Assembly (NCBI GenBank): GCA_013289175.1
Contig: JABDAN010000017.1
Span: 1-47,847, forward strand
Origin: Bacteroidota bacterium
Lineage (GTDB): Bacteria; Bacteroidota; Bacteroidia; Chitinophagales; Chitinophagaceae
Reading direction: 5' to 3'
Length of the DNA stretch: 47,847 nucleotides
In this document: positions 2,544 through 47,847 of the stretch, piece after piece
Layout: each line of letters begins with the position of its first letter
Position numbering within the stretch: position 1 is the first letter of the stretch
Made by a program: the position numbers and the translations under genes
Notes under the pieces: generated by a model
Database searches by the model: none
What the model saw: only the letters and a program-made list of their open reading frames with translations
Told to the model about the DNA's origin: nothing

Positions 2544-3095
2544 ATGAAAACAAACAGACTTTCCGCCGCCATTACAAAAGCGTTGAATGCCCAAATGACA
2601 AATGAAGCACACAATGCACAGATATACCTTTCTTATGCCTCCTGGGCAAGTGCAGAAGGTTACGATGGCATTGCCAATTTTTTGTTTCGCCATGAGAATG
2701 AAGAGCGAAACCATATGATGAAAATACTGGAATACATTTTAAAGCGGGGTGCCAAAGTGGAAGTAACTGCCATTCCCCATCCAGGACCCGACCCTACCGG
2801 TGTGTATGACTGCTTTGAAAAAGTGTTCAAATCCGAGGTTGAAAATACTGCAAATATCTACCGTCTTGTGGAAATGAGTATGGCGGAAAAGGATTGGGCC
2901 ACCTGGAATTTCATGCAGTGGTTTGTGAAGGAACAAACTGAGGAAGAAACACTGGCCATTGATTTACTGGACCGGATTAAAATTGCCGGTGGCGCAAAAG
3001 CTACGGATAGCGCCTTGTATGCGTTCAATCGTGACCTGGAAACAAAACCGGATGACGCTGTGCTGGCTCAAGATGTCACAGTAGATAAACCATAA
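2544..3095 (+). CDS. ftnA: Ferritin (non-haem, bacterial FtnA type)
   Basis: A 183-residue four-helix-bundle ferritin that oxidises Fe(II) at a di-iron site and stores the mineral inside a 24-mer shell in the cytoplasm. All the ferroxidase ligands of E. coli FtnA are present with a constant offset of four: Glu21, Glu54, His57, Glu98, Gln131 and Glu134. The core ends near residue 165; the extra tail is acidic and looks disordered. The gene stands alone between the divergent two-component operon and the PQQ dehydrogenase. An ATG 20 bases upstream is out of frame, so the start is unambiguous. Confidence 0.96.
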   Translation: MKTNRLSAAITKALNAQMTNEAHNAQIYLSYASWASAEGYDGIANFLFRHENEERNHMMKILEYILKRGAKVEVTAIPHPGPDPTGVYDCFEKVFKSEVENTANIYRLVEMSMAEKDWATWNFMQWFVKEQTEEETLAIDLLDRIKIAGGAKATDSALYAFNRDLETKPDDAVLAQDVTVDKP

Positions 3096-3113
3096 CCGAG
3101 CGAAATGGATGTT

Positions 3114-3127
3114 TTCCCTTCGGGGAA
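3114..3127 (+). terminator. Small UUCG-loop hairpin after ferritin
   Basis: TTCCC-TTCG-GGGAA forms a 5-bp stem with a stable UUCG tetraloop 18 bases after the ferritin stop. No T-tract follows, so it is either a weak terminator or an mRNA 3'-end stabiliser. Confidence 0.3.
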
Positions 3128-3295
3128 TAGTTGGTTGGTGTAACTAAGGATGATTATCAGAAAGGCATTCTTGGATTTAGCCAGCTGACTGGTGTAGGGC
3201 TGTGGGTACTGCTAAGCGTATGGGTCCAAATTATTTTTCCTACCCAGGTATCAATTAAATAAGCTGTAACACTGTCCCGTTAAAATTACACCGTA

Positions 3296-5446
3296 ATGAA
3301 ATTTTATGCTGTCTGTTCGATTCTGCTAGTGCTCCTTGTTGCCTGTCACACTGCTTCTGATTATTCTGGCTGGCCAAAATATGGAGGATCCTCAGACAAT
3401 ATCCATTATTCTTCCCTTAAGGAAATTGATACCGGAAATGTTTCTGCTATCCATATCGCCTGGGAATATCATACCGCCGATGCGGATACCGCTGCTCATT
3501 CCCAAATTCAATGCAATCCCATCATCGTGGATGGAACCCTGTTTGGAACCTCTCCGATGATGAAATTATTCGCATTGGATGCCGCAACGGGGAAACAGAA
3601 ATGGGAGTTCAATCCCTTCGACACCCTGAAAGGAAATAAAACTTCATTTTTTATCCTGAACAATTGCAGGGGAGTGTCCTACTGGACCGACGGCAAGCAG
3701 GATGAAAGGATATTTTATACGGCAGGACCGGATTTGTATTCGATCGATGCCCGGACCGGCAATCCGGTCGCAACTTTTGGACAGGCGGGAAAAATAGACT
3801 TGCATGAAGGTCTAGACCGCGATGTCGCAGACCTTTTTGTTACTTCCACTTCACCGCCTATTGTTTATCAGGATTTGCTGATTGTAGGAACCCGGGTAGA
3901 CGAAGGTCCTCATGCGGCCCCTGGTCATATCAGGGCATACAATATCCGTACTGGTGAAAGAGTATGGATATTTCATACCATTCCTCATCCGGGCGAAAAG
4001 GGTTTTGAAACCTGGGAGGATTCTTCCGCATATAAATATATTGGGGGCGCCAATGCCTGGAGTGGATTCAGCCTAGATGAGAAACGTGGTATGGTCTTCG
4101 CCGGTATCGGATCCGCTTCCTTTGATTTTTTTGGTGGAAGAAGAATAGGTAATGGATTGTTTTCGGACTGCATTCTGGCACTTGATGCCAAAACAGGAAA
4201 ACTGATTTGGCATTTCCAGGATATTCATCATGATGTCTGGGACCGGGATTTTTCATCCCCACCCGCCCTGGTAACGGTCGAAAAAAATAGCCAATCAATA
4301 GAGGCCGTAGCGGCTACCACCAAAACCGGATTTATTTATTTATTCGAACGGGAAACCGGTAAACCCATATATGATATCGTTGAAAAGCCGGTTCCCCAAA
4401 ACAGTGATCTTTTGGGAGAAAAACTGTCGCCTACTCAACCCATTCCAAGTCGCCCAGCTCCTTTTATGCGCCAGTTGTTTACAGAAAAAGACATCAATCC
4501 CCTGTTATCTGACTCCGCATACCAGGAAGTGAAAAAAAAATGGGCTTCTTATAAAAATGACAATATGTTCAACCCACCCTCCTTACAAGGCACCATCGTA
4601 TTTCCTGGATTGGACGGCGGCGCTGAATGGGGAGGTCCCAGCTTTGATCCAGTGGAAAAAGTCCTTTATATCAATGCCAACGAAATGGCATGGGTGATAC
4701 AGGCCGTGGCTGTAAAAGAAAAATCCGACTCCAGTGAAACCAACCTCATAGCTGGAAAACGACTTTTCATCACCAATTGTATGTCCTGTCACGGAGCCGA
4801 TAGAAAAGGTTCCGGAAACTATCCATCCATCATCGGAGTGGAAAAAAAATATAGTCCCGGATCCTTCGACTCCCTGCTTCAAACCGGCCGGCGTATGATG
4901 CCCGCATTCCGACAGATAGACCCGGATGAAAGAAAAGCCATAGCCTCCTATGTTTTAAACCAGATATCCATTCAAAAGATACCTTTTACCCGGAAAAAAA
5001 ATACCGGAGAAGAACATTTTTTTCTTCCCTATACGATTACCGGTTACAATAAGTTCCTGACCAGCCGGGGAGCACCTGCTATTTCGCCCCCTTGGGGAAC
5101 GTTAAACGCTTTAGATTTGAAATCAGGAAATTATATATGGAAAAAACCACTGGGCAATGATACCTCCTTCAAAAACAGCAAGGAACTGACCGGTCTCGAA
5201 AATTATGGAGGATCCGTAGTGACTGCAGGTGGGCTCTTGTTCATCGCTGCCACCAAAGACGGAAAGTTCCGGGCGTTTAACAAAAGAAATGGGTCCCTTT
5301 TATGGGAAACGACTCTTCCGGCGCCTGGATTTGCCACACCCGCCGTGTATGAGGTCAACGGAAAACAATACGTCGTCCTGGCATGTGGAGGAGGTAAAAT
5401 GAAAACCCTGTCGGGAGACAGTTATATAGCGTTTGCCCTTCCCTGA
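3296..5446 (+). CDS. PQQ-dependent dehydrogenase lipoprotein with cytochrome c domain
   Basis: A 716-residue periplasmic or outer-membrane lipoprotein: signal peptide ending in the lipobox LVAC with Cys17. Residues 25-475 hold most of an eight-bladed quinoprotein beta-propeller with repeated tryptophan-docking motifs (for example LDAATGKQKWEF and LDAKTGKLIWHF), as in PQQ glucose and alcohol dehydrogenases. A haem-c domain follows, with CMSCH at 495-499 and Met534/Met535 as candidate axial ligands. After it the propeller resumes (about 575-716) and closes the ring. It would oxidise an alcohol or sugar and pass electrons through PQQ and the haem to the respiratory chain. The substrate is unknown. 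No PQQ biosynthesis gene is nearby. It is convergent with the M61 peptidase gene. Confidence 0.9.
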   Translation: MKFYAVCSILLVLLVACHTASDYSGWPKYGGSSDNIHYSSLKEIDTGNVSAIHIAWEYHTADADTAAHSQIQCNPIIVDGTLFGTSPMMKLFALDAATGKQKWEFNPFDTLKGNKTSFFILNNCRGVSYWTDGKQDERIFYTAGPDLYSIDARTGNPVATFGQAGKIDLHEGLDRDVADLFVTSTSPPIVYQDLLIVGTRVDEGPHAAPGHIRAYNIRTGERVWIFHTIPHPGEKGFETWEDSSAYKYIGGANAWSGFSLDEKRGMVFAGIGSASFDFFGGRRIGNGLFSDCILALDAKTGKLIWHFQDIHHDVWDRDFSSPPALVTVEKNSQSIEAVAATTKTGFIYLFERETGKPIYDIVEKPVPQNSDLLGEKLSPTQPIPSRPAPFMRQLFTEKDINPLLSDSAYQEVKKKWASYKNDNMFNPPSLQGTIVFPGLDGGAEWGGPSFDPVEKVLYINANEMAWVIQAVAVKEKSDSSETNLIAGKRLFITNCMSCHGADRKGSGNYPSIIGVEKKYSPGSFDSLLQTGRRMMPAFRQIDPDERKAIASYVLNQISIQKIPFTRKKNTGEEHFFLPYTITGYNKFLTSRGAPAISPPWGTLNALDLKSGNYIWKKPLGNDTSFKNSKELTGLENYGGSVVTAGGLLFIAATKDGKFRAFNKRNGSLLWETTLPAPGFATPAVYEVNGKQYVVLACGGGKMKTLSGDSYIAFALP

Positions 5447-5568
5447 TTGCCAAACATCGGCATTTGATTTTATAACCGCAAAGCCTTAAAATGATCGGCA
5501 TGAATCAAAATAGGATGAAGAAAAAGATCCTGAAAGGTCCAGTCGATCATGGATGACAATTATCTGAA

Positions 5569-7452
5569 TTAGTTCAACTGTATACCATTGGGTTGCAACC
5601 AGGTATTGCGGAGCGCCAGTTGTTCCGGTGTCGGCTGATCCATAAAATCCAGGACATTTAATTTTATTACGGGGAATTTGGTCATCACCGCCGAAAGCAC
5701 CCATTCTTTGTATTCTCCGGCTTGATCTTTTCTCAAAACCTTTACGATCAGACTGTCGCCTTGTTTGGAGCCACTTCCAAAATTTACAAACAATCTATTG
5801 GCATTGGCGCCTCCAATAGTCAACCCATTTACGGAAATGATTTCATCATTCTTGTGATAACCCAGGGTCTTACCCACAGAATTGGCCGAAGAAATATCTG
5901 CAACGATCACCCTTCCGGTTTCGGGATTAAAGCCAAGGGTCACATGCCCCAGAGAAAAACTACTATCTTTTGTTTCGACTACCGGCTGGAGACTTACGCC
6001 CACGCTGTTAAAAATCTCTTCAAGCGGCAGGGGTTTGCTGCCAGCCACATAGGTATTGAGGAAATCCACTATCCCGGGATAGGTAAGTTTTCCAATTTCC
6101 GCAAAAAGCTCATCATCCTTAAATCCCTTTTTCTTACCGTATTTCAAGGAGAGGTCATGCATTAAATTGACAAATCCATATTTTCCGTGAGACCATTGGA
6201 GTAATTTTATGTCCAGGCAAAGGACGATCAACGCTCCTTTCTGATATACATTGGTGAATTGATCTTTATATTGGCCCAGAACGCCACTGCTCATAACGGT
6301 AAAAGGCACCGTATCATTAAAACGCGTTCTGGATGCGGTGATTGATTTGCTCAACCTATTTAAATATTCCTCTGGAGTAATGATTCCGTACTTCTCCTGA
6401 ACTATTTGAGCATGGTATTCGGTAGATCCTTCATAAAGCCAAAGATGTTGCGACATTTTCGGACGATTGAAGTCAAAATATTGGATTTCTTGGGAATGAA
6501 TACTCAATGGTGTTATAATGTGAAAAAATTCATGTGCTGCAGCACTCACAAATTGCTGGGACAATTTTTCAGGGCCGCGTTCACGGAAATAATAAAAGGA
6601 TGAATAGGAATGTTCCAATGCGCCTTCGCTTCCGGAAGGTCCGGGTTTATCGCTCAGGAAAATAAGAAAGGCATATTTGTCAACCGGGAGGGTTCCTCCC
6701 AGATATTTTGTCTGAGCCATCAGTAAGGTATCCAGTTTTTCAGCGAGAAATTTCGACGTAATTATTTTATGAGGGGAATATACAGAAATGAGTACCTCCG
6801 TCTTTCCTACCTTAATGATTGTAGTATCCGGGAAATCAAATAAAAATGGGTTGTCTACGATCTGGTTGTATGATTCCGTCACAAACCTATCTGCACCAGG
6901 AGTCATTTCCAGATCTTTCAGCGCCGTACTTCCATACATACCAACTGGATGAGTAAAATTCACTTCATAGGGTATGTTCTTCATGCCATCAAAATATCCC
7001 AACAGACACTGATTATTGATTGCAAATACCGTATCTTTTTCGATGTCCGAACCGGCCGGCTCAAAAACACTTTGCTTGGTGTTATAGTCATCATAGGTGT
7101 CATTGACGAAATAAGAAATTTTATACAGTTTGTCTGCATGGGAAATGACCCAACTGTTCGGATCCGTTTTTAAAACGGCCAAAGTATCTCCTTTCCTGTC
7201 AAAGGCCTTAAATTGTTCCACATACCTTCCAAAGTCGTCGATAGAATATGTACCCGGAACTATTTTGGGGAATTGATAAGTGATTGACTTTTGAGTAATA
7301 ACCGGACAAATCAGTTCCACTTTTATTCGGTCATTGATAATATGAACCAGGTCGATGGAAAACCGATAACCTAGAAATGGTTTGCTTTTTTGTGACAGGG
7401 TCACCAGGGCAGATAAAAAGAATATGCAGACTAAACAGGCCTTTTTGTTCAT
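5569..7452 (-). CDS. M61 family metallopeptidase with PDZ domain
   Basis: A 627-residue exported peptidase (signal peptide about 1-20) of the glycyl-aminopeptidase family. The N-terminal beta-rich domain (about 25-200) precedes the zinc site: HEFFH at 307-311, with the third ligand Glu341 in WLYEGSTEY. A PDZ domain sits near 505-590, containing GYHKNDEIISVNG, and probably recognises substrate C-termini. M61 enzymes of this kind release N-terminal Gly or Ala from peptides in the periplasm. The gene is monocistronic and divergent from ku across a 214-bp gap, where I saw no clear promoter box. Confidence 0.92.
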   Translation of the reverse strand: MNKKACLVCIFFLSALVTLSQKSKPFLGYRFSIDLVHIINDRIKVELICPVITQKSITYQFPKIVPGTYSIDDFGRYVEQFKAFDRKGDTLAVLKTDPNSWVISHADKLYKISYFVNDTYDDYNTKQSVFEPAGSDIEKDTVFAINNQCLLGYFDGMKNIPYEVNFTHPVGMYGSTALKDLEMTPGADRFVTESYNQIVDNPFLFDFPDTTIIKVGKTEVLISVYSPHKIITSKFLAEKLDTLLMAQTKYLGGTLPVDKYAFLIFLSDKPGPSGSEGALEHSYSSFYYFRERGPEKLSQQFVSAAAHEFFHIITPLSIHSQEIQYFDFNRPKMSQHLWLYEGSTEYHAQIVQEKYGIITPEEYLNRLSKSITASRTRFNDTVPFTVMSSGVLGQYKDQFTNVYQKGALIVLCLDIKLLQWSHGKYGFVNLMHDLSLKYGKKKGFKDDELFAEIGKLTYPGIVDFLNTYVAGSKPLPLEEIFNSVGVSLQPVVETKDSSFSLGHVTLGFNPETGRVIVADISSANSVGKTLGYHKNDEIISVNGLTIGGANANRLFVNFGSGSKQGDSLIVKVLRKDQAGEYKEWVLSAVMTKFPVIKLNVLDFMDQPTPEQLALRNTWLQPNGIQLN

Positions 7453-36407: not shown

Positions 36408-37568
36408 TCATTTTTCGTTCCAACTGGTCGTATATCCGGGATTCTCCAGTGCAAGGGCCGTATCCGTGAGGGACAAAGGATGAAAAGTGTCTACCATCAC
36501 GGCCAGTTCCTTGGTTTCTTTTGCACCCAGGCTCTTTTCGACGGTTCCAGGATGGGGGCCGTGCGGGATACCAGCCGGATGCAGCGTCATCATACCTCGC
36601 GTAACATTTTTACGGCTCATAAAATCACCATCTACATAGTACAACAATTCATCGCTGTCAATATTGCTGTGATTATAAGGAACCGGAATAGATAAGGGAT
36701 GATAGTCGAATAAACGGGGCACAAAACTGCAAACGACAAAATTATTCCCTTCAAAGGTTAAATGTACGGGCGGGGGTTGGTGAATCCTTCCGGTTATGGG
36801 TTCAAAATTGTGTATCGAAAAAATATAAGGATAACAACAGCCGTCCCAGCCTACGACATCGAAGGGATGATGGGCATAGTGAATTCCATAAAGCATTCCC
36901 TGCTTTTTTATACGAACCAGGAAATCGCCCGTTTCATCTTTTGGCTCGAATGATACCGGCGTTCTTATATCGCGCTCACAATAGGGAGAATTTTCAAGCA
37001 GCTGTCCATATTTGCTCACATATTTTTTGGGGTAGCGGATTGGGCTGAATGACTCCACAATAAAAAGTCGATTTCCTTCCGATTCAAATTGAATCTGGTA
37101 AATGGTTCCCCGGGGAATATGAATGTAATCGCCATAGCCGAAGGAAAGCTGACCATAGACCGTTGAAATTTTCCCCTTTCCTTCATGGACAAAGATCAGT
37201 TCGTCCGCATCGGCATTCTTAAAAAAATAATCAGTGAGTGATTGTTTGGGAGCGGCCAGGGATATTTGCACATCCTTGTTTACCAACAAGGGCTTTCTGC
37301 TATTGAGGTAATCATTTTGCGGGATTAACTTAAAGCCCTCCAGGCTTCTGTGTTTCAGCATTTTTTCTTCTGCGATCCGGATATCGATCGTGGTAGGCAT
37401 ATCGGTTTGAAGAATCTGGGTCGGCGGGTGGATATGATAGAGTAAGCTGTAATCGCTTGAAAATCCCTCTGTAGATACCAATTCTTCTGAATATAATTTT
37501 CCTGAAGCGCTTCGGAACTGGGTATGTCGTTTTTCTGGAACGACACCCCGACTGATAAAATGGGGCAT
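36408..37568 (-). CDS. hmgA: Homogentisate 1,2-dioxygenase
   Basis: A 386-residue iron(II) dioxygenase that opens the ring of homogentisate to maleylacetoacetate, the third step of phenylalanine/tyrosine catabolism. It is shorter than proteobacterial and human HGD (about 430-445), as is usual in Bacteroidota. Likely metal ligands are His300 and Glu307 in NHSNIDSDELLY (one residue further apart than in the human enzyme) and His336 in GIPHGPHPG. It is divergent from hppD; the two share a 220-bp region that should hold both promoters. Confidence 0.93.
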   Translation of the reverse strand: MPHFISRGVVPEKRHTQFRSASGKLYSEELVSTEGFSSDYSLLYHIHPPTQILQTDMPTTIDIRIAEEKMLKHRSLEGFKLIPQNDYLNSRKPLLVNKDVQISLAAPKQSLTDYFFKNADADELIFVHEGKGKISTVYGQLSFGYGDYIHIPRGTIYQIQFESEGNRLFIVESFSPIRYPKKYVSKYGQLLENSPYCERDIRTPVSFEPKDETGDFLVRIKKQGMLYGIHYAHHPFDVVGWDGCCYPYIFSIHNFEPITGRIHQPPPVHLTFEGNNFVVCSFVPRLFDYHPLSIPVPYNHSNIDSDELLYYVDGDFMSRKNVTRGMMTLHPAGIPHGPHPGTVEKSLGAKETKELAVMVDTFHPLSLTDTALALENPGYTTSWNEK

Positions 37569-37650
37569 AAATTTATTTTTATGGAACTATCGGTAAAGTT
37601 CAGATCCATTTTTCCATATATCAATTTTATTTTATTTAATTTTATGGACG

Positions 37651-37761
37651 ATGCGACCAGATTATGCCCGTAAAATATTCAGCGACCAGCGCAGGCGTTA
37701 TATCTTTTTGCTGATCTCCCTTGCGGCCGGTTCCTCGTATATTTCCAACCAGATGGACTGA
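37651..37761 (+). CDS. Possible 36-aa ORF between hmgA and hppD
   Basis: An ATG-to-TGA frame of 36 codons on the plus strand, basic at the start (MRPDYARKIF, DQRRRY) with a short hydrophobic stretch (IFLLISLAAGSSY). It resembles a small membrane peptide and sits 27 bases before hppD. It could be a leader peptide or chance; no homologue is recognised. Confidence 0.25.
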   Translation: MRPDYARKIFSDQRRRYIFLLISLAAGSSYISNQMD

Positions 37762-37788
37762 TTCACTTTTTATCAATTAAACTTTTTT

Positions 37789-38883
37789 ATGGAAAACGAT
37801 TTTCTGCCCCTGTTGGGTACGGACTATATTGAATTCTATGTGGGCAATGCCAAACAAGCAGCCCATTATTATAAAACCGCTTTTGGATTTCAGGGGATCG
37901 CCTACGCTGGTCCGGAAACCGGAATGAAGGATCGTGCCAGTTATGTGGTCAGCCAGAACCAGTTGACCTTGGTATTTACCTCCGCCCTGCGGCCTGACCA
38001 TCCCATTTCCCAACAGGTTTTACAACATGGAGATTCCGTAAAAGCAATTGCCCTCCGGGTGGAGGATGCAGAAAAAGCTTGGAAGGAAACGACCCAAAGA
38101 GGAGCGCTGAGTGAAATGGAGCCCAGAAAATTGTCTGACAATGCGGGAACAGTCGGCATGAGCGCCATCAAACTCTATGGAGATACCATTCATCTGTTTA
38201 TAGAAAGAAAAAAATACAGCGGCGTATTTATGCCAGGATATATTGGCTGGGAAACTGAGTACAACCCATCACCGACCGGGCTGCTATACGTGGATCATTG
38301 CGTGGGAAATGTGGGGTGGAATCAGATGAATCGATGGGTTTCTTTTTATGAAAAGGTCATGGGATTTAAAAACATCCTGAGTTTTGATGACACCGATATT
38401 TCTACAGAGTATTCTGCCTTGATGAGCAAGGTCATGAGCAATGGCAATGGCTTTGTTAAATTTCCGATCAATGAGCCGGCAGAAGGTAAAAGAAAATCAC
38501 AGGTAGAGGAATTCCTTGAGTTTTTTAACGGGGAAGGGGTTCAGCACGTAGCCCTAGCCACCAAGGACATTGTGAAAACCGTTAGGGAACTCATGAAACG
38601 GGGTGTTGAATTTCTAAAGGTTCCGGGCAGTTACTATGATGACCTGGAAGCCAGGGTGGGGAAAATTGATGAAGATCTGGAGCCTTTGAAAGACATGGGC
38701 ATTCTGGTCGACCGGGATCCGGATGGCTATCTGCTTCAGATTTTCAGCAAACCGGTCCAGGACAGACCAACCGTATTTTTTGAAATTATCCAGCGTAAGG
38801 GAGCCAAAAGTTTCGGAAAGGGAAATTTCAAAGCACTTTTTGAAGCCATCGAACGCGAGCAGGAAAAAAGGGGTAATATATGA
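37789..38883 (+). CDS. hppD: 4-Hydroxyphenylpyruvate dioxygenase
   Basis: A 364-residue vicinal-oxygen-chelate enzyme that converts 4-hydroxyphenylpyruvate to homogentisate and CO2. The iron ligands His170 (VDHCVG), His253 (VQHVALAT) and Glu332 (FFEIIQRKG) are in place, and the end GKGNFKALFEAIEREQ is a known C-terminal helix signature. The ATG follows an AT-rich stretch without a Shine-Dalgarno. Its stop overlaps the next start (ATGA), so hppD and the fumarylacetoacetase gene are one operon. Confidence 0.97.
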   Translation: MENDFLPLLGTDYIEFYVGNAKQAAHYYKTAFGFQGIAYAGPETGMKDRASYVVSQNQLTLVFTSALRPDHPISQQVLQHGDSVKAIALRVEDAEKAWKETTQRGALSEMEPRKLSDNAGTVGMSAIKLYGDTIHLFIERKKYSGVFMPGYIGWETEYNPSPTGLLYVDHCVGNVGWNQMNRWVSFYEKVMGFKNILSFDDTDISTEYSALMSKVMSNGNGFVKFPINEPAEGKRKSQVEEFLEFFNGEGVQHVALATKDIVKTVRELMKRGVEFLKVPGSYYDDLEARVGKIDEDLEPLKDMGILVDRDPDGYLLQIFSKPVQDRPTVFFEIIQRKGAKSFGKGNFKALFEAIEREQEKRGNI

Positions 38884-39884
38884 AACTGGTTAGCTTTTTA
38901 AAAAACGGAAAACAATCAGCGGGTCTGCTCTCGGAAGAAAAGGTATATGATATCCATTTGCTTCAACCGGATCTGCCGGATAACATGCTTGAAATTCTAG
39001 AGAACTGGAACCTTTTTTATCCGAAGTTGCGCAAACTTTCGGCAGATTTAACCACTTCCTCACTCATAAAAAGCCGCAGCATTTCATGGACGGAACCCAC
39101 GCTGTTGGCGCCTGTACCCAATCCTCCCTCTCTACGGGACGGATATGCTTTCAGGCAACATGTGGAAACAGCAAGGCGAAACCGGGGGCTGGATATGACA
39201 CCGGTTTTCGATTCTTTTCCCGTATTTTATTTTGGCAATCACCGGACAGTTCGGGGACCTGGTCCGCTATATATTATGCCGGATCAGCTAAAGAAACTGG
39301 ATTATGAACTCGAAGCAGCGGTCGTAATCTCCAAAAACGGAAAAAATATTCGAACACAAGATGCAGAGGACTACATTGCCGGACTCATGATTCTCAATGA
39401 TTTCAGTGCTAGAACCTTGCAAATGGAAGAAATGTTGCTCAACCTGGGGCCGGCCAAAGGAAAAGATTTTGTTACTACCACAGGACCTTGGCTGGTGACA
39501 CTGGACGAATTGAAGGAGTTTGAGGTTCCCAGTCCTAAAAATCATGAAGGAAAATCTTGGAATCTAAAAATGTCCGCTTCTGTAGGCGGTAAAACCTTAA
39601 GCAAGGGGAACCTCCGGGATATGGAATGGACTTTTGCCGAAATAATTGCACGGGCTTCCTATGGCGTTGAGCTGTATCCGGGGGACATCATCGGTTCTGG
39701 AACAGTGGGAACCGGATGTCTGCTTGAATTAAATGGAACGGGGAAATTAAATGATCCGGCCTATGAAGAACAATGGCTGAAGCCCGGTGATGAAATTGAG
39801 TTGAAAATTGAGGCTTTGGGGAGCTTGAAAAATCAGGTTCTGGCTGAGGATACCGACTATTCCATTCTAGAGTTGAAAAAATAA
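38880..39884 (+). CDS. Fumarylacetoacetate hydrolase family protein (tyrosine catabolism)
   Basis: A 334-residue FAH-type enzyme: N-terminal domain (about 1-80) and a catalytic barrel with DYELEAAVVI (metal-binding Glu), LNDFSAR, GPAKGKDFVTTTGPWLVT, and GDIIGSGTVGTGCLLEL. By context it is the fumarylacetoacetase that yields fumarate and acetoacetate, ending the route begun by hppD and hmgA. The start overlaps the hppD stop by four bases. The maleylacetoacetate isomerase needed between them is not in the window. Confidence 0.9.
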   Translation: MKLVSFLKNGKQSAGLLSEEKVYDIHLLQPDLPDNMLEILENWNLFYPKLRKLSADLTTSSLIKSRSISWTEPTLLAPVPNPPSLRDGYAFRQHVETARRNRGLDMTPVFDSFPVFYFGNHRTVRGPGPLYIMPDQLKKLDYELEAAVVISKNGKNIRTQDAEDYIAGLMILNDFSARTLQMEEMLLNLGPAKGKDFVTTTGPWLVTLDELKEFEVPSPKNHEGKSWNLKMSASVGGKTLSKGNLRDMEWTFAEIIARASYGVELYPGDIIGSGTVGTGCLLELNGTGKLNDPAYEEQWLKPGDEIELKIEALGSLKNQVLAEDTDYSILELKK

Positions 39885-40549: not shown

Positions 40550-41662
40550 TCAGTGGAAACCGTTTTCTGATCCCAGGGCTTGCACGATCAGCCGGTGAAA
40601 ATGATGAATCCCCTGTTCCCGGCTTACCGAATAACGGCCATGATGATAAAAACGGGAACGAATGCCTTTTTGAACAGCTTCAACCACCTCCTCATCTTCC
40701 ATTTCCACCGCATCCAAACCCGATCCTGCACCCTTGTTAAATAGTTCTTCCTTCCAGACATAGGTCAAAAAAGATACCGAAGTCAAATCTCGGGATTGCG
40801 GTTGGATCAGGTTGATGCTGAGCCCCCACGGATAAAAATTGAACATCATATTGGGGAATACAAAGAAATAATAAGCCGCAACGTTTTTTCCAAAATCTTT
40901 GGAGGATTCAGGCAGGTCGAATATCTGTTCGTTCGTTTTGGCAAGTCCCAGCTGCAGGTTTGAATATTCGAACAATTCCGTGGTGTAATTTCCATAATCT
41001 ATTACCGCATTCAAACTGGCATGCACAAAGGGAATGTGAAAACCTTCCAGATAGTTTTCACAGTAGAGTGCCCAGTGGGCTTTGACGGTGAATTGATTGG
41101 ATAAATCCGGTCTGTAAATAAAATCCTGGAGCGGTAGCCAAGACATTCGGTCCTTCATCGCGGCAAAATATTTTTTGGGGTCTGCCCGTAAATCCAGCGA
41201 AGTAAATAAGCAGGGTCCCCATTCAAACAATGGCAGCTGGGTGAGATCATCTTCCCTGGAGGGGAAATTTTTTACTTCCTTAAATTCCGGCATGGAGAGA
41301 AATCGTCCATCCAGGTGAAATTGCCTTCCGTGGTACCGGCATCGTAAGTGGGCTGCAGAACAGGGTTCTGTAATCAAGACCGTGCCCCGGTGCGTGCAGA
41401 CATTGGAGAGGCAATGCATTTGCTGTTGGGCGTCCCTGGTCAGCAAAAGCGGCTCATTCAGGTAGTTTTCCAAAAGAGTAAAGGGATAACAACGCCCCTT
41501 TTCGGTTATCAAACCCTTGTCTCCAATATATTGCCAGCTTTTTTCAAAAATACTTGAACGGCTCTGCTCGAATAAATCAGGATCTGTATAAAAATCGGTG
41601 TGCAGCGTCATCGCCTTCGATATGTCCGGATCTATATGAAACCGCCCTGGGTGATCTTCCAT
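40550..41662 (-). CDS. Rieske non-haem iron oxygenase, alpha subunit
   Basis: A 370-residue oxygenase. The Rieske [2Fe-2S] domain has Cys89-x-His91 and Cys108-x2-His111 (CTHRG and CRYHG). The catalytic mononuclear iron site is Asn203-Tyr-Leu-Glu...His209...His214 in NYLEGFHIPFVH. The third carboxylate should be further downstream and is not clear by eye. It would hydroxylate a small organic substrate with a separate reductase, which is not encoded nearby. The family also includes choline and betaine oxygenases, so a link to the amine operon starting 900 bases away is possible but not shown. Confidence 0.9.
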   Translation of the reverse strand: MEDHPGRFHIDPDISKAMTLHTDFYTDPDLFEQSRSSIFEKSWQYIGDKGLITEKGRCYPFTLLENYLNEPLLLTRDAQQQMHCLSNVCTHRGTVLITEPCSAAHLRCRYHGRQFHLDGRFLSMPEFKEVKNFPSREDDLTQLPLFEWGPCLFTSLDLRADPKKYFAAMKDRMSWLPLQDFIYRPDLSNQFTVKAHWALYCENYLEGFHIPFVHASLNAVIDYGNYTTELFEYSNLQLGLAKTNEQIFDLPESSKDFGKNVAAYYFFVFPNMMFNFYPWGLSINLIQPQSRDLTSVSFLTYVWKEELFNKGAGSGLDAVEMEDEEVVEAVQKGIRSRFYHHGRYSVSREQGIHHFHRLIVQALGSENGFH

Positions 41663-42374: not shown

Positions 42375-42529
42375 GACTAAAATTTAATACGACAATTTAC
42401 CCAAAGCATTTAATATGCAAACATCAAACTTTCTTATTTGGAATCCTCCCCTGCCTGCTTGCCAAACCTTTTATTCATTCTATTTTTGGATACCAGCCCC
42501 TCAAAGGATTTTAAATTCACCTTTCAGTT

Positions 42530-43849
42530 ATGATATCTCCACCAGCCCCCACGCTAAAACGAACTTTGAGCCCTTTTCTACTCTGGGGACTGGGTGTGGG
42601 ATACGTGATTTCCGGTATGTATTTCGGATGGAATCTGGGTCTTGAACAGGGTGGTTCGGGAGGCCTGGCCATCGCGACCTGTTTTATTATTGTCCTGTAT
42701 ACCACATTTACTTTCAGCTATGCCGAACTTGCCGCCGCCATACCCAAAGCAGGGGGTGCTTTTGACTATGCCTTTCGTGCATTGGGAAGCGACCTAGGTT
42801 TTATAGCGGGTATGGCTCAAAACATTGAATTCATTTTTGCGCCCCCAGCGATCGCCTTTGCCATCGGCGCCTATTTCAATCTGTTTTTTCCGGAAATTCC
42901 TGTCAGGGCCATCGCCCTTTTTGCCTATATCTTGTTTACATCCTTGAATATCTATGGGGTAAAAGCAGCGGCGATGTTTGAACTGTTTATCACTTTGTTT
43001 GCAGTGGGAGAATTGTTGTTGTTTACCGGCGTCACGCTTCCTCATTTTGAATGGAGCCATATCCGGCACAATGCCTTTCCCCATGGATGGCAGGGAATCC
43101 TGGCCTCCATTCCTTTTGCAATATGGTTTTTTCTGGGAATCGAGGGGGTTGCCAATGTCGCAGAAGAGGTTCATCGCCCCCAACGCACTTTATTGCTGGG
43201 TTTCGGTTCTGCCATCCTGACCCTGGTGGTATTGTGTATATTGATTTTCTTGAGCTCTATCGGTGTCGCAGGATGGGAGGCAGTTGTCTACCGGTCAGAT
43301 GGAAAAACCTCTGATTCCCCGCTGCCGCTTGCACTGGCCCATATTACCGGCAACAACCACCTACTCTACCATTTGTTGATCACCGTTGGATTATTCGGAC
43401 TGGTCGCTTCCTTTCATGGATTGATTCTGTCGGCAGGTAGGGCGACCTACGAATTTGGCAAAGTAAAATTTGCACCGGAATTTCTGGGGAAAATACATCC
43501 CCGTTTCAAAACTCCTTCCAATGCCCTGCTTGTAAATATGGCGATCGGCATGATTGCCCTGCTATCGGGAAAAACCGACCAGGTTATCACCCTTTCTGTT
43601 TTTGGAGCCTTAACCCTTTATATTCTCTCCATGGTCTCGATGCTGCGCCTTCGCAGAAATGAGCCCTCATTGCCCAGACCTTTCCGGGTTCCCCTGTACC
43701 CCATTTTTCCCGTCGTTGCACTGGTGATCTCCGTTCTTTCGATTATTGCCATGACCATTTACAATTTTGAACTGGCCCTGTTTTATTTGACCTTGCTGGT
43801 ATTTTCATATGGATTCTTTAAGTTGGTAACCAGAAGGAGAACTTCTTAA
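42530..43849 (+). CDS. eat: Ethanolamine-type amino acid permease
   Basis: A 439-residue APC-superfamily transporter with twelve transmembrane helices. The opening LLWGLGVGYVISGMYFGWNLG, the stretch SYAELAAAIPKAGGAFDYA and IEGVANVAEEVHRPQRT are characteristic of ethanolamine permeases rather than of general amino acid carriers. It would take up ethanolamine with protons. It starts a four-gene operon: the glutamine-synthetase-like gene begins 10 bases after its stop. Confidence 0.88.
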   Translation: MISPPAPTLKRTLSPFLLWGLGVGYVISGMYFGWNLGLEQGGSGGLAIATCFIIVLYTTFTFSYAELAAAIPKAGGAFDYAFRALGSDLGFIAGMAQNIEFIFAPPAIAFAIGAYFNLFFPEIPVRAIALFAYILFTSLNIYGVKAAAMFELFITLFAVGELLLFTGVTLPHFEWSHIRHNAFPHGWQGILASIPFAIWFFLGIEGVANVAEEVHRPQRTLLLGFGSAILTLVVLCILIFLSSIGVAGWEAVVYRSDGKTSDSPLPLALAHITGNNHLLYHLLITVGLFGLVASFHGLILSAGRATYEFGKVKFAPEFLGKIHPRFKTPSNALLVNMAIGMIALLSGKTDQVITLSVFGALTLYILSMVSMLRLRRNEPSLPRPFRVPLYPIFPVVALVISVLSIIAMTIYNFELALFYLTLLVFSYGFFKLVTRRRTS

Positions 43850-43859
43850 TAATAGTTTT

Positions 43860-45215
43860 ATGGATACAAAGGAAATTCTGGCCTATGTGAAAAATCACGC
43901 GTCGGGAAAAGTCAAAATCGCCCTGACCGATATCGACGGGGTCCTAAGGGGCAAATACATATCTGTCGAAAAATTTTTATCGGTTGTAGATTCCGGAACC
44001 AGTTTCTGCGATGTAGTATTCGGCTGGGATTCATCCGATGCAGCTTATGACAATGGGTCCTATACCGGTTGGCATACAGGATATCCGGATGCACCTTCTC
44101 GGCTGGATTTATCCACCTTCAGAAAAATACCCTGGGAAAATGACCTTCCTTTCTTTCTGGGTGAGCTCATTCAAAATGAAAATGAACCAGCGGTTTGCCC
44201 ACGGCAACTCTTGAGAAAAGTATCGAGTGACGCTCTAAAGGCAGGGCTTTTTCCGCTGTTCTCTCAGGAGTTCGAGTGGTACAATTTTTCAGAAACGCCC
44301 CAGACTGCCAACGAAAAAAAATTTTCCAATCTGCAACCCCTGACTCCGGGCATGTTTGGATATTCCATTCTTCGCAGCAGTTTGCAGCATGACTTTATGA
44401 ATGACCTTTTCGAATTACTCCATCAATTTGGCATTCCCATAGAAGGTCTGCATACGGAAACAGGCCCCGGCACCTATGAAGCGGCGATCCGATATTCTGA
44501 AATTCTGGAGGCAGGGGATCGGGCGGTACTTTTTAAGACCGCCGTGAAGGAAATCGCATATAAACAAGGCATCATGGCGACTTTCATGGCTAAGATTCAT
44601 GAAAACCTGCCAGGGTGCGGCGGTCATGTCCATCAGAGTCTTTGGGACCCAGGCCAAAAGAAAAATCTTTTTTATGATGAAAAAGATCCTTTGCACATGA
44701 GTGAGACGATGAAACAATATGTAGCGGGACAGCTTTTGCTCCTTCCCGAAATTCTTCCGCTCTTTGCACCCACGATTAACAGCTATAAAAGACTGGTAGA
44801 AGGAGCCTGGGCACCCACTACCCTTACCTGGGGTATGGATAACCGGACCGTAGCGATCCGTATTTTATCGGGCTCTAAATCTGCTTGCAGAATGGAAACC
44901 CGGGTAATTGGTTCGGATGTGAATCCCTATTTGGCCATGGCGGGTGCTCTGGCAGCGGGACTCTACGGTATAAAAAATAAATTAAGATTGGATCAACCTC
45001 CCTCTGTTGGAAATGGCTACCAGGATTCATCCTATGGTCGCCTTCCTACGACCCTGGACGAAGCCACTAAAAAAATGAAGCAATCCGTTCGGGTCCGGGA
45101 AATGCTGGGAGAAAGTTTTGTGGACCATTTCACGCGCACACGGGAATGGGAATGGCGTCAACACCTCAAGAGCGTTACAGACTGGGAACTAAAAAGGTAT
45201 TTTGAAATCATTTAA
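43860..45215 (+). CDS. Glutamine-synthetase-like gamma-glutamyl ligase (GlnA4/PuuA type)
   Basis: A 451-residue GS-fold enzyme. Metal and active-site residues are present: Glu137/Glu139 in SQEFEWYN, Glu200 and Glu207 in HTETGPGTYEAAI, and His256/His258 in GCGGHVHQS. The shorter Glu-Glu spacing and the GPGxYE motif are those of the gamma-glutamylamide ligases for amines (polyamine or ethanolamine), not of the ordinary GS with its HHEVATAGQ motif. By context it should ligate glutamate to the amine imported by the permease. It lies 10 bases after the permease and 17 before the iron alcohol dehydrogenase. Confidence 0.85.
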   Translation: MDTKEILAYVKNHASGKVKIALTDIDGVLRGKYISVEKFLSVVDSGTSFCDVVFGWDSSDAAYDNGSYTGWHTGYPDAPSRLDLSTFRKIPWENDLPFFLGELIQNENEPAVCPRQLLRKVSSDALKAGLFPLFSQEFEWYNFSETPQTANEKKFSNLQPLTPGMFGYSILRSSLQHDFMNDLFELLHQFGIPIEGLHTETGPGTYEAAIRYSEILEAGDRAVLFKTAVKEIAYKQGIMATFMAKIHENLPGCGGHVHQSLWDPGQKKNLFYDEKDPLHMSETMKQYVAGQLLLLPEILPLFAPTINSYKRLVEGAWAPTTLTWGMDNRTVAIRILSGSKSACRMETRVIGSDVNPYLAMAGALAAGLYGIKNKLRLDQPPSVGNGYQDSSYGRLPTTLDEATKKMKQSVRVREMLGESFVDHFTRTREWEWRQHLKSVTDWELKRYFEII

Positions 45216-45232
45216 TCTAACAGGCACTCCTT

Positions 45233-46381
45233 ATGAATTTCCAGAAAATAATTCAATATAATTTTCCAACCCTCATTCGTTTTGGTGCCGGCTCCAGTAA
45301 AGAACTGGGACCCTACCTGATAAAAAACGAGTGGCGCCGCCCTTTGATCGTATCGGATCCGACCGTTTCGCAACTGGGATTCTTTGACAGGATGGTAAAG
45401 GATCTCCAGGCCCAGAATATTTCCGTTGAAACATATTACCGGATCCATAAAAATCCAGTGAAATCGGATGTTTACCGGGGGACTGAAATCTATGACGAAG
45501 AACAACGGGATTGTATCGTTGGAATTGGAGGAGGTGCGGCGCTGGATGTGGCTCGTGCCATCGCCCTGCGGGTGAATCATCGCGAGGACCTTTTCAAGTA
45601 TGACGATCTCCAAGGCGGAGACATCTATGTAATCCATGAGGTCCCCCCCTTCATCACCATTCCTACTACTGCCGGTACAGGCAGCGAGGTAGGCAGGAGC
45701 GCCATCATATCTGATGATGAAACGCACCAGAAAAAGATCCTGTTTTCACCCAAACTACTGGCCCGACTGGTATTGGCAGATCCCCTGCTCACCATGGATC
45801 TTCCTCCTTTTGTAACGGCCGCTACCGGAATGGACGCTCTTACCCACAATATGGAAGCGTTTCTGGTAAATATGTTTCACCCCATGTGTGACGGAATTGC
45901 CCTTCAGGCCATATCCTTGATTCAGGAATCCCTGGAAAAGGCTGTCAATCATCCGGATTTGGAATCCAGAAGCAAAATGCTGATCGCTTCTCTGATGGGC
46001 GCCGTGGCCTTTCAAAAAGGCCTGGGTGTCGTACATTCCCTGGCTCACCCGCTTTCTTCTTTGCTGGATACACACCATGGCCTGGCCAACGCCATCAACA
46101 TTCCCTATGGAATGGAATTTAATATCGACGGTTTTGAAAATAAATTTGCACAGATGGCAAGGGCACTGAAACTGAAAAAAGAATCGGGTCAGGCGGTGGT
46201 TGATTTTCTTTTCGAACTAAATGATCAGATAAAGATACCTCGTAAACTCGGCGACATCGGCGTTCTTAGTGAACACATCGACACCCTGGCTGATCTGGCA
46301 CTGGCGGATTTCGCGCATCCGAATAATCCAAAACCTGTAACCAGGGATGATTTCAAAAAATTATATTTAAAGGCATTGTAG
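45233..46381 (+). CDS. Iron-containing alcohol dehydrogenase
   Basis: A 382-residue group III alcohol dehydrogenase. NAD is bound by GGGAALD (99-105) and the TTAGTGSEVG segment (145-154). The iron ligands Asp201, His205, His268 and His282 keep the same spacing as in FucO (4, 63 and 14 residues). In this operon it would oxidise the hydroxyl of the glutamylated amino alcohol to an aldehyde, which the next enzyme takes further. Such an enzyme is not needed for polyamine pathways, so it is a clue to an alcohol-bearing substrate. Confidence 0.94.
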   Translation: MNFQKIIQYNFPTLIRFGAGSSKELGPYLIKNEWRRPLIVSDPTVSQLGFFDRMVKDLQAQNISVETYYRIHKNPVKSDVYRGTEIYDEEQRDCIVGIGGGAALDVARAIALRVNHREDLFKYDDLQGGDIYVIHEVPPFITIPTTAGTGSEVGRSAIISDDETHQKKILFSPKLLARLVLADPLLTMDLPPFVTAATGMDALTHNMEAFLVNMFHPMCDGIALQAISLIQESLEKAVNHPDLESRSKMLIASLMGAVAFQKGLGVVHSLAHPLSSLLDTHHGLANAINIPYGMEFNIDGFENKFAQMARALKLKKESGQAVVDFLFELNDQIKIPRKLGDIGVLSEHIDTLADLALADFAHPNNPKPVTRDDFKKLYLKAL

Positions 46382-46404
46382 CCGACCAAAATATTTATAC
46401 CCAT

Positions 46405-47781
46405 ATGCAAATCATCAATCCGGCAACCGAGGAAATCATCGCTGAAATCCCCCAAGACAAAGCGGCCTCCCTTGACTTAAAATTTAAGATGCTTAAAAAT
46501 GCAGCCGAGTCCTGGGCTGACTGTCCGATACAACACCGCATCCGGGTTATTCAAAAATTTTCTGATTCCTTGTCCAAGCAGATCGATGCACTAGCGGCCA
46601 CTCTGACATCCGAAGTGGGGAAACCATTGTCTCAGAGCCGCCAGGAGATCAACGGTGCAAAGACACGAATCCAATGGTTGGCTGAACACGCCGAGCAATA
46701 CCTGGGAGATGAAGTGATGACCCGGTTAGCGGACATGGAGGAAAGAATATCCTATGAGCCGTTGGGTGTTGTCTGCAATATTTCAGCCTGGAATTATCCT
46801 TGGCTGGTTGGGGTGAATGTTTTTATCAGTGCTTTGTTGGCAGGCAATGCCGTCATGTACAAACCATCTGAATATGCCCTGCTGACGGGGCTGGCTATAG
46901 AGAATTTGCTAAAGGAAGCCGGCATCCCTGAAGGTGTTTTTCAGGTGGCCCTCGGGGGTGGCGATGTAGGTGAATACCTGTTAAATCTGCCCTTCGACGG
47001 ATATTTTTTTACCGGCTCCTATAAAACCGGCCAGCATATCTACGAAAAATGCGCTTTGAAAATGGTACCATGCCAATTGGAAATGGGCGGTAAAGATCCG
47101 TTGTACATTACCGATGATATCACAGATATCCAGCAAGTAGCGGCTGGTACGGCAGACGGTGCCTTTTACAACAATGGTCAAAGCTGTTGCTCGGTAGAAC
47201 GTATATATGTACACAAGCATATCTACGAAAATTATTTGCAGGAATTCCTAAAAACGGTGAGCTCATGGAAGGTAGGAAGTCCCAGCGATGAGTCAGTATA
47301 TTTTGGTCCGCTGACCCGCAAAGATCAGCTAAAGGTTCTGGAAAATCAGGTCCAAGATGCCTTGGTGAAAGGAGCGCACCTTCATTTGGGTGGAAACCGC
47401 TTGAAAGGGAAAGGTTATTATTTTCAACCCACCGTTCTTACAGACGTGACCCACCAAATGCTGGTGATGAAAGAGGAATCATTTGGGCCGATCATCGGAA
47501 TCATGAAAGTAGAAAACGATGAAGAGGCCATAAGTCTCATGCAGGACACGGAATACGGATTAACAGCAGCGGTATATGGTTCCGACAGGAAAAGAGCAGA
47601 GCGTATATTGCACCAAATGAATGCAGGTTCCGGATACTGGAATTGTTGTGATCGGGTATCTGCTGCGCTACCCTGGAGCGGAAGAAAACATTCAGGATTT
47701 GGGGCGACCCTATCGCATGCGGGGCTTCAAAGTTTTGTTCGCCCAAAATCCTGGCATTTGCGCAGTCAGACCCGCTTATGA
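46405..47781 (+). CDS. Aldehyde dehydrogenase (NAD(P)+)
   Basis: A 458-residue aldehyde dehydrogenase with catalytic Cys261 in NNGQSC, general base Glu226 in LEMGGKDP, and an NAD-binding FTGSYKTG turn near 202. It resembles the succinate-semialdehyde/gamma-glutamyl-aldehyde subgroup. It would oxidise the aldehyde made by the iron alcohol dehydrogenase to an acid. Its TGA overlaps the stop of a convergent gene by six bases, so no terminator lies between them. Confidence 0.94.
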   Translation: MQIINPATEEIIAEIPQDKAASLDLKFKMLKNAAESWADCPIQHRIRVIQKFSDSLSKQIDALAATLTSEVGKPLSQSRQEINGAKTRIQWLAEHAEQYLGDEVMTRLADMEERISYEPLGVVCNISAWNYPWLVGVNVFISALLAGNAVMYKPSEYALLTGLAIENLLKEAGIPEGVFQVALGGGDVGEYLLNLPFDGYFFTGSYKTGQHIYEKCALKMVPCQLEMGGKDPLYITDDITDIQQVAAGTADGAFYNNGQSCCSVERIYVHKHIYENYLQEFLKTVSSWKVGSPSDESVYFGPLTRKDQLKVLENQVQDALVKGAHLHLGGNRLKGKGYYFQPTVLTDVTHQMLVMKEESFGPIIGIMKVENDEEAISLMQDTEYGLTAAVYGSDRKRAERILHQMNAGSGYWNCCDRVSAALPWSGRKHSGFGATLSHAGLQSFVRPKSWHLRSQTRL

Positions 47782-47847
47782 CAGATATAATTGCTCATCC
47801 AAACCATCAGGTATGATCCGGAAATTTCTTACTTCCTCACATTCCGC
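47776..47847 (-). CDS. Unidentified gene, C-terminal fragment at window edge
   Basis: A minus-strand frame enters the window and runs 23 codons to a TAA at 47776-47778, which overlaps the aldehyde dehydrogenase stop by six bases. The tail reads VRNFRIIPDGLDEQLYLS, so it looks like real protein, but it is too short to name the family. It could be the next catabolic gene or a regulator of the operon. Confidence 0.45.
   Translation of the reverse strand, partial: AECEEVRNFRIIPDGLDEQLYLS

Follow-up and report, generated by a model that had tools for sequence, protein, structure and literature searches.

We examined a stretch of 47847 bases from a member of the Chitinophagaceae (Bacteroidota), hereafter the window, which is all of contig C17 in an assembly of 3.2 Mb and 130 contigs that is 80 percent complete. 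Four genes near its right end are quite likely to form an operon for the cobalamin-free use of ethanolamine via gamma-glutamylation. The set lies on the plus strand at 42530-47781, and its open reading frames and families agree exactly with the original prediction, including the gaps of 10, 17 and 23 bases. It encodes an Eat-type ethanolamine permease of the APC superfamily (42530-43849, 439 amino acids; TIGR00908, PF13520), a gamma-glutamyl amine ligase with the glutamine synthetase fold (43860-45215, 451 amino acids; PF00120), a group III iron alcohol dehydrogenase (45233-46381, 382 amino acids; PF00465, PF25137) and an aldehyde dehydrogenase (46405-47781, 458 amino acids; PF00171). The last three are predicted to act as gamma-glutamylethanolamide synthetase, as gamma-glutamylethanolamide dehydrogenase and in the formation of gamma-glutamylglycine, respectively.

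In the proposed pathway, the permease would import ethanolamine, which comes from phosphatidylethanolamine, a very common membrane lipid. The ligase would use ATP to join it to the gamma-carboxyl group of glutamate, the iron alcohol dehydrogenase would oxidise the hydroxyl group to the aldehyde, and the aldehyde dehydrogenase would convert this to gamma-glutamylglycine. A hydrolase of the peptidase C26 family would finally free glycine and glutamate. The hydrolase gene would lie outside the operon in the lineage of the window, whereas it lies inside in most comparable relatives. Gamma-glutamylation of ethanolamine, as proposed originally, is supported through comparison by the equivalog score of the permease, by permease kin linked to EutB, by Trp317 of the ligase and by the hydrolase found in relatives.

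The permease reaches 437.6 bits with the TIGR00908 ethanolamine permease equivalog, above the cut-off of 381.75, and by this score the set contains the ethanolamine uptake step of the gamma-glutamyl ethanolamine pathway; its score with PF13520 is 138.8 bits. In a survey of 117 genomes from the Chitinophagaceae, the family of the window, this permease family was present in 36 genomes and fell into two groups. The first comprises 19 genomes, the window's own and 18 with permeases at 61-76 percent identity, and in all 19 the ligase is on the same contig, 2-855 bases away. The second, divergent group comprises 17 genomes whose permeases are 42-48 percent identical to that of the window; EutB is on the same contig in 16 of them, within 264 bases in 15 and at 1919 bases in one. 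EutB acts on ethanolamine, and since the divergent kin adjoin it, the permease family can be tied to this substrate.

EutB was found in none of the 19 genomes of the first group (Fisher p 0.023). In the whole survey it occurs in 21 genomes, one with a short fragment (G071) and one with a more divergent copy (G050), and five of the 21 are without a permease of the second group. The window had been described as having neither EutBC nor a microcompartment. This holds for EutB, as PF06751 gave no match in the 80 percent complete genome while the E. coli control was positive; EutC and shell proteins were not part of the search.

The ligase matches PF00120 with 323.7 bits, and the expected amine-ligase pattern E-x-GPG-x-YE was located from E200 to E207. 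No NCBIfam model reaches its cut-off, and the margins are wide: 228.9 bits against 429.15 for the GlnA equivalog, 217.8 against 650 for gamma-glutamylputrescine synthetase and 217.3 against 469.6 for type III glutamine synthetase. We read the correspondence of residues by eye from alignments and the residue list of PMC6529630, with the window as one of 22 rows. The residues for metal, glutamate and nucleotide (E137, E139, E200, E207, G252, H256, H258, R311, R334, R344, E346 and R348) are conserved in all 22 rows. The Asp50 position is Asp64, conserved in 20 of the 22, and the Tyr179 position is Met165 in the ligase of the window. The position of Glu327, the catalytic flap residue of the ammonia site in the Salmonella enzyme, is taken by Trp317 in every row; the cited sections of PMC6529630 give Trp296 for PauA7 and Phe for GlnA4 at this place. 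Because Trp replaces Glu327 as in PauA7, the view that this ligase is not a glutamine synthetase is supported.

The best sequence match of the ligase in the PDB is 11zs, titled glutamine synthetase of Brucella melitensis, followed by 5dm3, which is Csal_0679 of Chromohalobacter salexigens. The structure model is only fair (mean predicted local distance difference test score, pLDDT, 77.4, and below 50 in several loops). The nearest relatives are L003 (82 percent identity, Chitinophagaceae bacterium UBA5175) and L019, which form one group with the window in the ligase tree (support 100/99). The outgroup row L090 sits on a very long branch of the tree, which was therefore used only to place these three and the ligases with another gene set described below, a branch whose own support is uneven (91/38). 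Relatives on plasmids, annotated mostly as glutamine synthetase, reach up to 47 percent identity.

Both dehydrogenases that the gamma-glutamyl ethanolamine pathway uses are present and linked, at 45233-46381 and 46405-47781. The alcohol dehydrogenase matches PF00465 and PF25137, and its D201, H205, H268 and H282, which we take to be the iron ligands, are found in all 60 aligned rows, three of which are copies of the window's own sequence. The aldehyde dehydrogenase scores 431.8 bits with PF00171.

We compared 80 Bacteroidota ligase loci, the best 80 of 578 relatives and thus leaning towards close kin; in 58 of them the sequence runs on for 4 kb or more past the ligase, and 70 have at least 1.3 kb upstream. 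The alcohol dehydrogenase is kept in 44 and the aldehyde dehydrogenase in 42 of the 58, with both in 42, and the permease is upstream of the ligase in 61 of the 70. Since the dehydrogenases and the permease are kept at relatives' loci, the linkage of the four genes is not due to chance. Their co-transcription is predicted. Across the 117 genomes, the ligase was counted in 30, the hydrolase in 18, the alcohol dehydrogenase in 20 and EutB in 21. The 20 genomes with the alcohol dehydrogenase all have the ligase (Fisher p 1.8e-15), 17 have the hydrolase (p 1.7e-16) and none has EutB (p 0.022); these p values are too small and overstate independence, because the genomes are related. The three without a hydrolase at the threshold are the window's own, G053, in which the dehydrogenase is cut by the end of the contig, and G095, where a hydrolase frame stands at the contig end. 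Conversely, 17 of the 18 hydrolase genomes have the ligase, the exception being G047.

A PuuD-like gene of the peptidase C26 family was found in 41 of the 58 loci with at least 4 kb downstream. It is present in 40 of the 42 loci that also hold both dehydrogenases, the remaining two being L019 and L021, and it sits between the dehydrogenases in 39 of the 42, L077 being arranged otherwise; L023 and L043, with shorter downstream tails, have no hydrolase at the locus. Seven hydrolase regions were scanned and match PF07722 with 129.7-159.3 bits; three relatives' hydrolases, compared with NCBIfam, did not reach the cut-off of any named family. The resemblance to PuuD is distant (PDB 6vtv, E 8.3e-7). 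Cys103, His209 and Glu211, presumably the catalytic residues, are invariant in 12 of 12 sequences.

Moreover, the hydrolase and the aldehyde dehydrogenase share one reading frame of 649-708 amino acids, with the hydrolase N-terminal, in 10 of the 80 loci (L005, L006, L007, L010, L014, L018, L020, L024, L026 and L064; the strain name is identical for L020 and L024, and L005 extends past the end of its contig). Pfam confirmed both domains in L010 and L026, the two that were scanned; L009 has a split frame. Of the 18 hydrolase genomes in the family survey, four have the hydrolase in an open frame of 676-704 amino acids, and these may overlap with the 10 loci.

The hydrolase had been noted as missing from the window, and a search beyond its right edge had been suggested. 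It was indeed not found in the window, and relatives' operons do carry a PuuD-like gene. The window's own incomplete genome showed none, however, with either a single protein or a 12-row profile as query, while the profile search was positive in the control genomes L010, L011 and L025. The suggested place did not hold up either. The sequence past the right edge cannot be read because the window ends with the contig, and the last 35 bases (47813-47847, plus strand) contain a possible gene start, truncated by the contig end, that resembles the next gene of L019 and not a hydrolase. Compared by eye, MIRKFLTSSHS of the window and MIRKLMSSNRS of L019 (3852) are identical at 6 of 11 positions, and the putative start lies 31 bases past the aldehyde dehydrogenase in the window and 28 bases in L019. 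The hydrolase is thus probably not the next gene.

Three PF07722 matches in the window's genome (30.7-35.5 bits) were rejected as candidates, as they did not match five operon hydrolases. In other genomes, nine places with an unlinked hydrolase were covered, leaving out L100 and L104. Seven of them (L096, L097, L098, L102, L103, L107 and L122) have one or both of the alcohol and aldehyde dehydrogenases adjacent or one gene away. The two without dehydrogenases nearby are L105, which belongs to the L019 genome, and L108, which belongs to G047, a genome lacking such a ligase. One neighbour of the unlinked hydrolase of the L019 genome was sought in the genome of the window without success, which leaves no basis for comparing that place.

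Several observations weigh against the proposed pathway. A profile search for the hydrolase in 16 genomes was positive in 12 and found none in those of the window (80 percent complete), L021, L023 and L043, with no completeness figure for the last three. The best NCBIfam models for the two dehydrogenases, neither reaching its cut-off, are 4-hydroxybutyrate dehydrogenase (324.9 against 500) for the alcohol dehydrogenase and succinic semialdehyde dehydrogenase (359.1 against 521) for the aldehyde dehydrogenase. In 14 of the 58 loci, the ligase has no dehydrogenase or hydrolase nearby, and G047 combines the hydrolase with EutB in the absence of this ligase. Finally, 10 of the 30 ligase genomes are without the alcohol dehydrogenase and nine of these have another gene beside the ligase; with such neighbours, membership of the ligase family is not enough to decide the substrate.

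The same chemistry could serve a different amino alcohol, namely 1-amino-2-propanol, 2-amino-1-propanol (alaninol) or 3-amino-1-propanol, with ethanolamine as a secondary substrate. No ligase residue that we tested discriminates C2 from C3 amino alcohols, and the ligase of the window shares 40.6 percent identity with a protein of Paenarthrobacter aurescens TC1 annotated as IpuC (gamma-glutamylisopropylamide synthetase), although closer plasmid relatives exist. The score of the permease as an ethanolamine permease and its divergent kin beside EutB in 16 of 17 genomes also speak against such a substrate, and we regard it as improbable. The Ipu pathway for isopropylamine shares, by annotation, the gamma-glutamylation of an amine, and the P. 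aurescens set also has a dehydrogenase and a peptidase C26 gene. It differs in that the dehydrogenase is of the short-chain type, that a cytochrome P450 and a ferredoxin adjoin, and that its ligase sits on a very long branch of the tree.

A polyamine route of the Puu type, in which the ligase would act on putrescine and the dehydrogenases on the derived intermediates, might be suggested by the resemblance of the ligase to the gamma-glutamylputrescine synthetase model, far below the cut-off as it is, and by the distantly PuuD-like hydrolase of the relatives. However, there is no amine oxidase among the four genes, the Puu route has no step for an iron alcohol dehydrogenase, and the putrescine-ornithine antiporter model gives the permease 31.4 bits, compared with 437.6 from the ethanolamine permease model, so that this route appears very unlikely. 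We give equally little credence to an ordinary glutamine synthetase beside a separate gene set oxidising ethanolamine, choline or 4-hydroxybutyrate. In its favour, the ligase is the sole PF00120 gene found in the genome, with no ordinary glutamine synthetase seen; as the genome is 80 percent complete, this means little. The sub-cut-off dehydrogenase scores named above, and that of the alcohol dehydrogenase with the choline dehydrogenase model (249.4 of 550 bits), also point that way. On the other hand, all 22 rows have Trp at the Glu327 position, the ligase falls 200 bits short of the GlnA cut-off, all 20 dehydrogenase genomes have the ligase, and choline, a quaternary amine, cannot be glutamylated. 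Gamma-glutamylation of ethanolamine remains the reading that we prefer.

Among the closest known systems is the GlnA4 pathway of Streptomyces coelicolor (Krysenko 2019, PMC6529630). In the sections cited here, the same route is proposed, with the ligase step shown in vitro and the later steps predicted. A ligase, a dehydrogenase, an aldehyde dehydrogenase and a hydrolase are likewise involved, and the proposed intermediates also end in glycine and glutamate. The cluster legend names a short-chain dehydrogenase, whereas the window has an iron alcohol dehydrogenase. The Streptomyces hydrolase is termed both a glutamine amidotransferase and a member of the formylglutamate amidohydrolase family, in contrast to the peptidase C26 gene of the window's relatives, and these sections report no strong homologue of Eat, which the window has. 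A review, in the part cited, repeats the Streptomyces scheme (PMC9397018). In Phaeobacter, the cited sections describe pathway enzymes that rise on phosphorylethanolamine and a binding protein that binds ethanolamine (PMC10132767). That operon likewise holds a ligase, an aldehyde dehydrogenase, an alcohol dehydrogenase and a gamma-glutamylglycine amidohydrolase, but a TRAP transporter takes the place of the Eat permease.

A similar set is found on a plasmid of Legionella lytica (L092), where a ligase (44.7 percent identity), an aldehyde dehydrogenase, an iron alcohol dehydrogenase and a class I amidotransferase-type gene stand in a row. Its alcohol dehydrogenase is the top of 1598 plasmid records matching that of the window. 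The gene order differs, no Eat permease adjoins, and the last gene matches PF00117 only and is not of the peptidase C26 family. The alcohol dehydrogenase next in rank, on a Pseudosulfitobacter plasmid (H42), was set aside, having no ligase beside it. The gamma-glutamyl ethanolamine route is also said to have been shown in Chromohalobacter (C. salexigens) and Agrobacterium (A. tumefaciens), reportedly by Vetting in 2015.

The route has thus already been published for other phyla, and the Bacteroidota are a new phylum-level member; because the pathway is known, the novelty is modest. What is new is the Bacteroidota version with Eat, an iron alcohol dehydrogenase and a peptidase C26 hydrolase, together with its either-or relation to EutB, and the fresh element is the fusion of hydrolase and aldehyde dehydrogenase in relatives. 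Among the open-access papers listed we found no description of this gene set in Bacteroidota, and the main texts of PMC6529630, PMC9397018 and PMC10132767 do not contain the word "Bacteroid-". A wider proposal, for which we see about as much reason for belief as for doubt, is that the Bacteroidota have two mutually exclusive ethanolamine routes around one permease family. One would be dependent on vitamin B12 (Eat and EutB) and the other free of it (Eat, ligase, iron alcohol dehydrogenase, aldehyde dehydrogenase and hydrolase). Some members of the phylum would have a bifunctional hydrolase-aldehyde dehydrogenase that combines the last two steps and converts gamma-glutamylaminoacetaldehyde directly to glycine and glutamate. 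If the pathway is true, about a sixth of the family genomes sampled (20 of 117, with ligase and dehydrogenase) could use ethanolamine without B12. The choice between EutB and glutamylation next to one permease family amounts to an experiment already set up by nature, and with the fusion proteins the last two steps could be tested in one tube.

The ligases of the 10 dehydrogenase-less genomes form one branch with another gene set, and three of these genomes have EutB. This sister branch (L111-L120, for example L114 at 2969-6279) shares 55-61.5 percent identity with the window's ligase, and because three of its genomes have EutB, its ligase probably has another substrate. A gene for about 350 amino acids follows the ligase in nine of the ten loci (not L115), and a HAD-type gene is next or nearly so in eight (not L115 and L118), as read from the frames. 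The protein of about 350 amino acids had no Pfam match in L114 and L118, the two scanned, and nothing in the PDB matched it convincingly (best E 0.14); by eye it shows a D-x4-N and DxD pattern reminiscent of kinases. In L114 the HAD gene scores above the cut-off of TIGR01460.

In six Emticicia-type loci (L044, L058, L067, L069, L075 and L081), the ligase occurs without the Eat permease. In L067, the locus scanned, its neighbours encode a GntP-type permease and a protein with weak similarity to ATP-grasp enzymes (24.8 bits, where the cut-off is 27), and genes of similar size flank the ligase in the other five. The dehydrogenase and the hydrolase are located elsewhere in the two genomes of this type that were examined (L102, L103).

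The genome G035 (L106, L123), given as belonging to the genus of the window, has the complete set of five genes in the usual order. Identity to the window's proteins is only 60-65 percent for the permease, the ligase and the alcohol dehydrogenase and 55 percent for the aldehyde dehydrogenase, and several genomes of other genera are closer to the window's operon genes. Transfer or replacement of the G035 operon is possible.

A possible, weak promoter lies at 42459-42488 on the plus strand, where a sigma-70-like scan finds TTG and then TATTTTTG, ending 41 bases 5' of the first start codon; the scan gave 9 matches against 7.9 expected. Within it, TANNTTTG matches 42481-42488, with a scan total of 33 against 43.3 expected. 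The consensus applied to 42459-42488 is the one that we take to be that of Bacteroidota promoters. The pattern TTTG-N15-24-TANNTTTG had no match before the operon.

Upstream, positions 36408-39884 hold tyrosine-breakdown-like genes, with a 4-hydroxyphenylpyruvate dioxygenase at 454.6 bits against a cut-off of 277; two others, which resemble fumarylacetoacetase and homogentisate dioxygenase, stay below cut-off. On the minus strand, 40550-41662 encodes the alpha subunit of a Rieske-type oxygenase with a weak resemblance to glycine betaine monooxygenase (83.4 bits against 670). A relative of this Rieske gene with 71 percent identity is found in L003, also upstream and on the same side of the operon.

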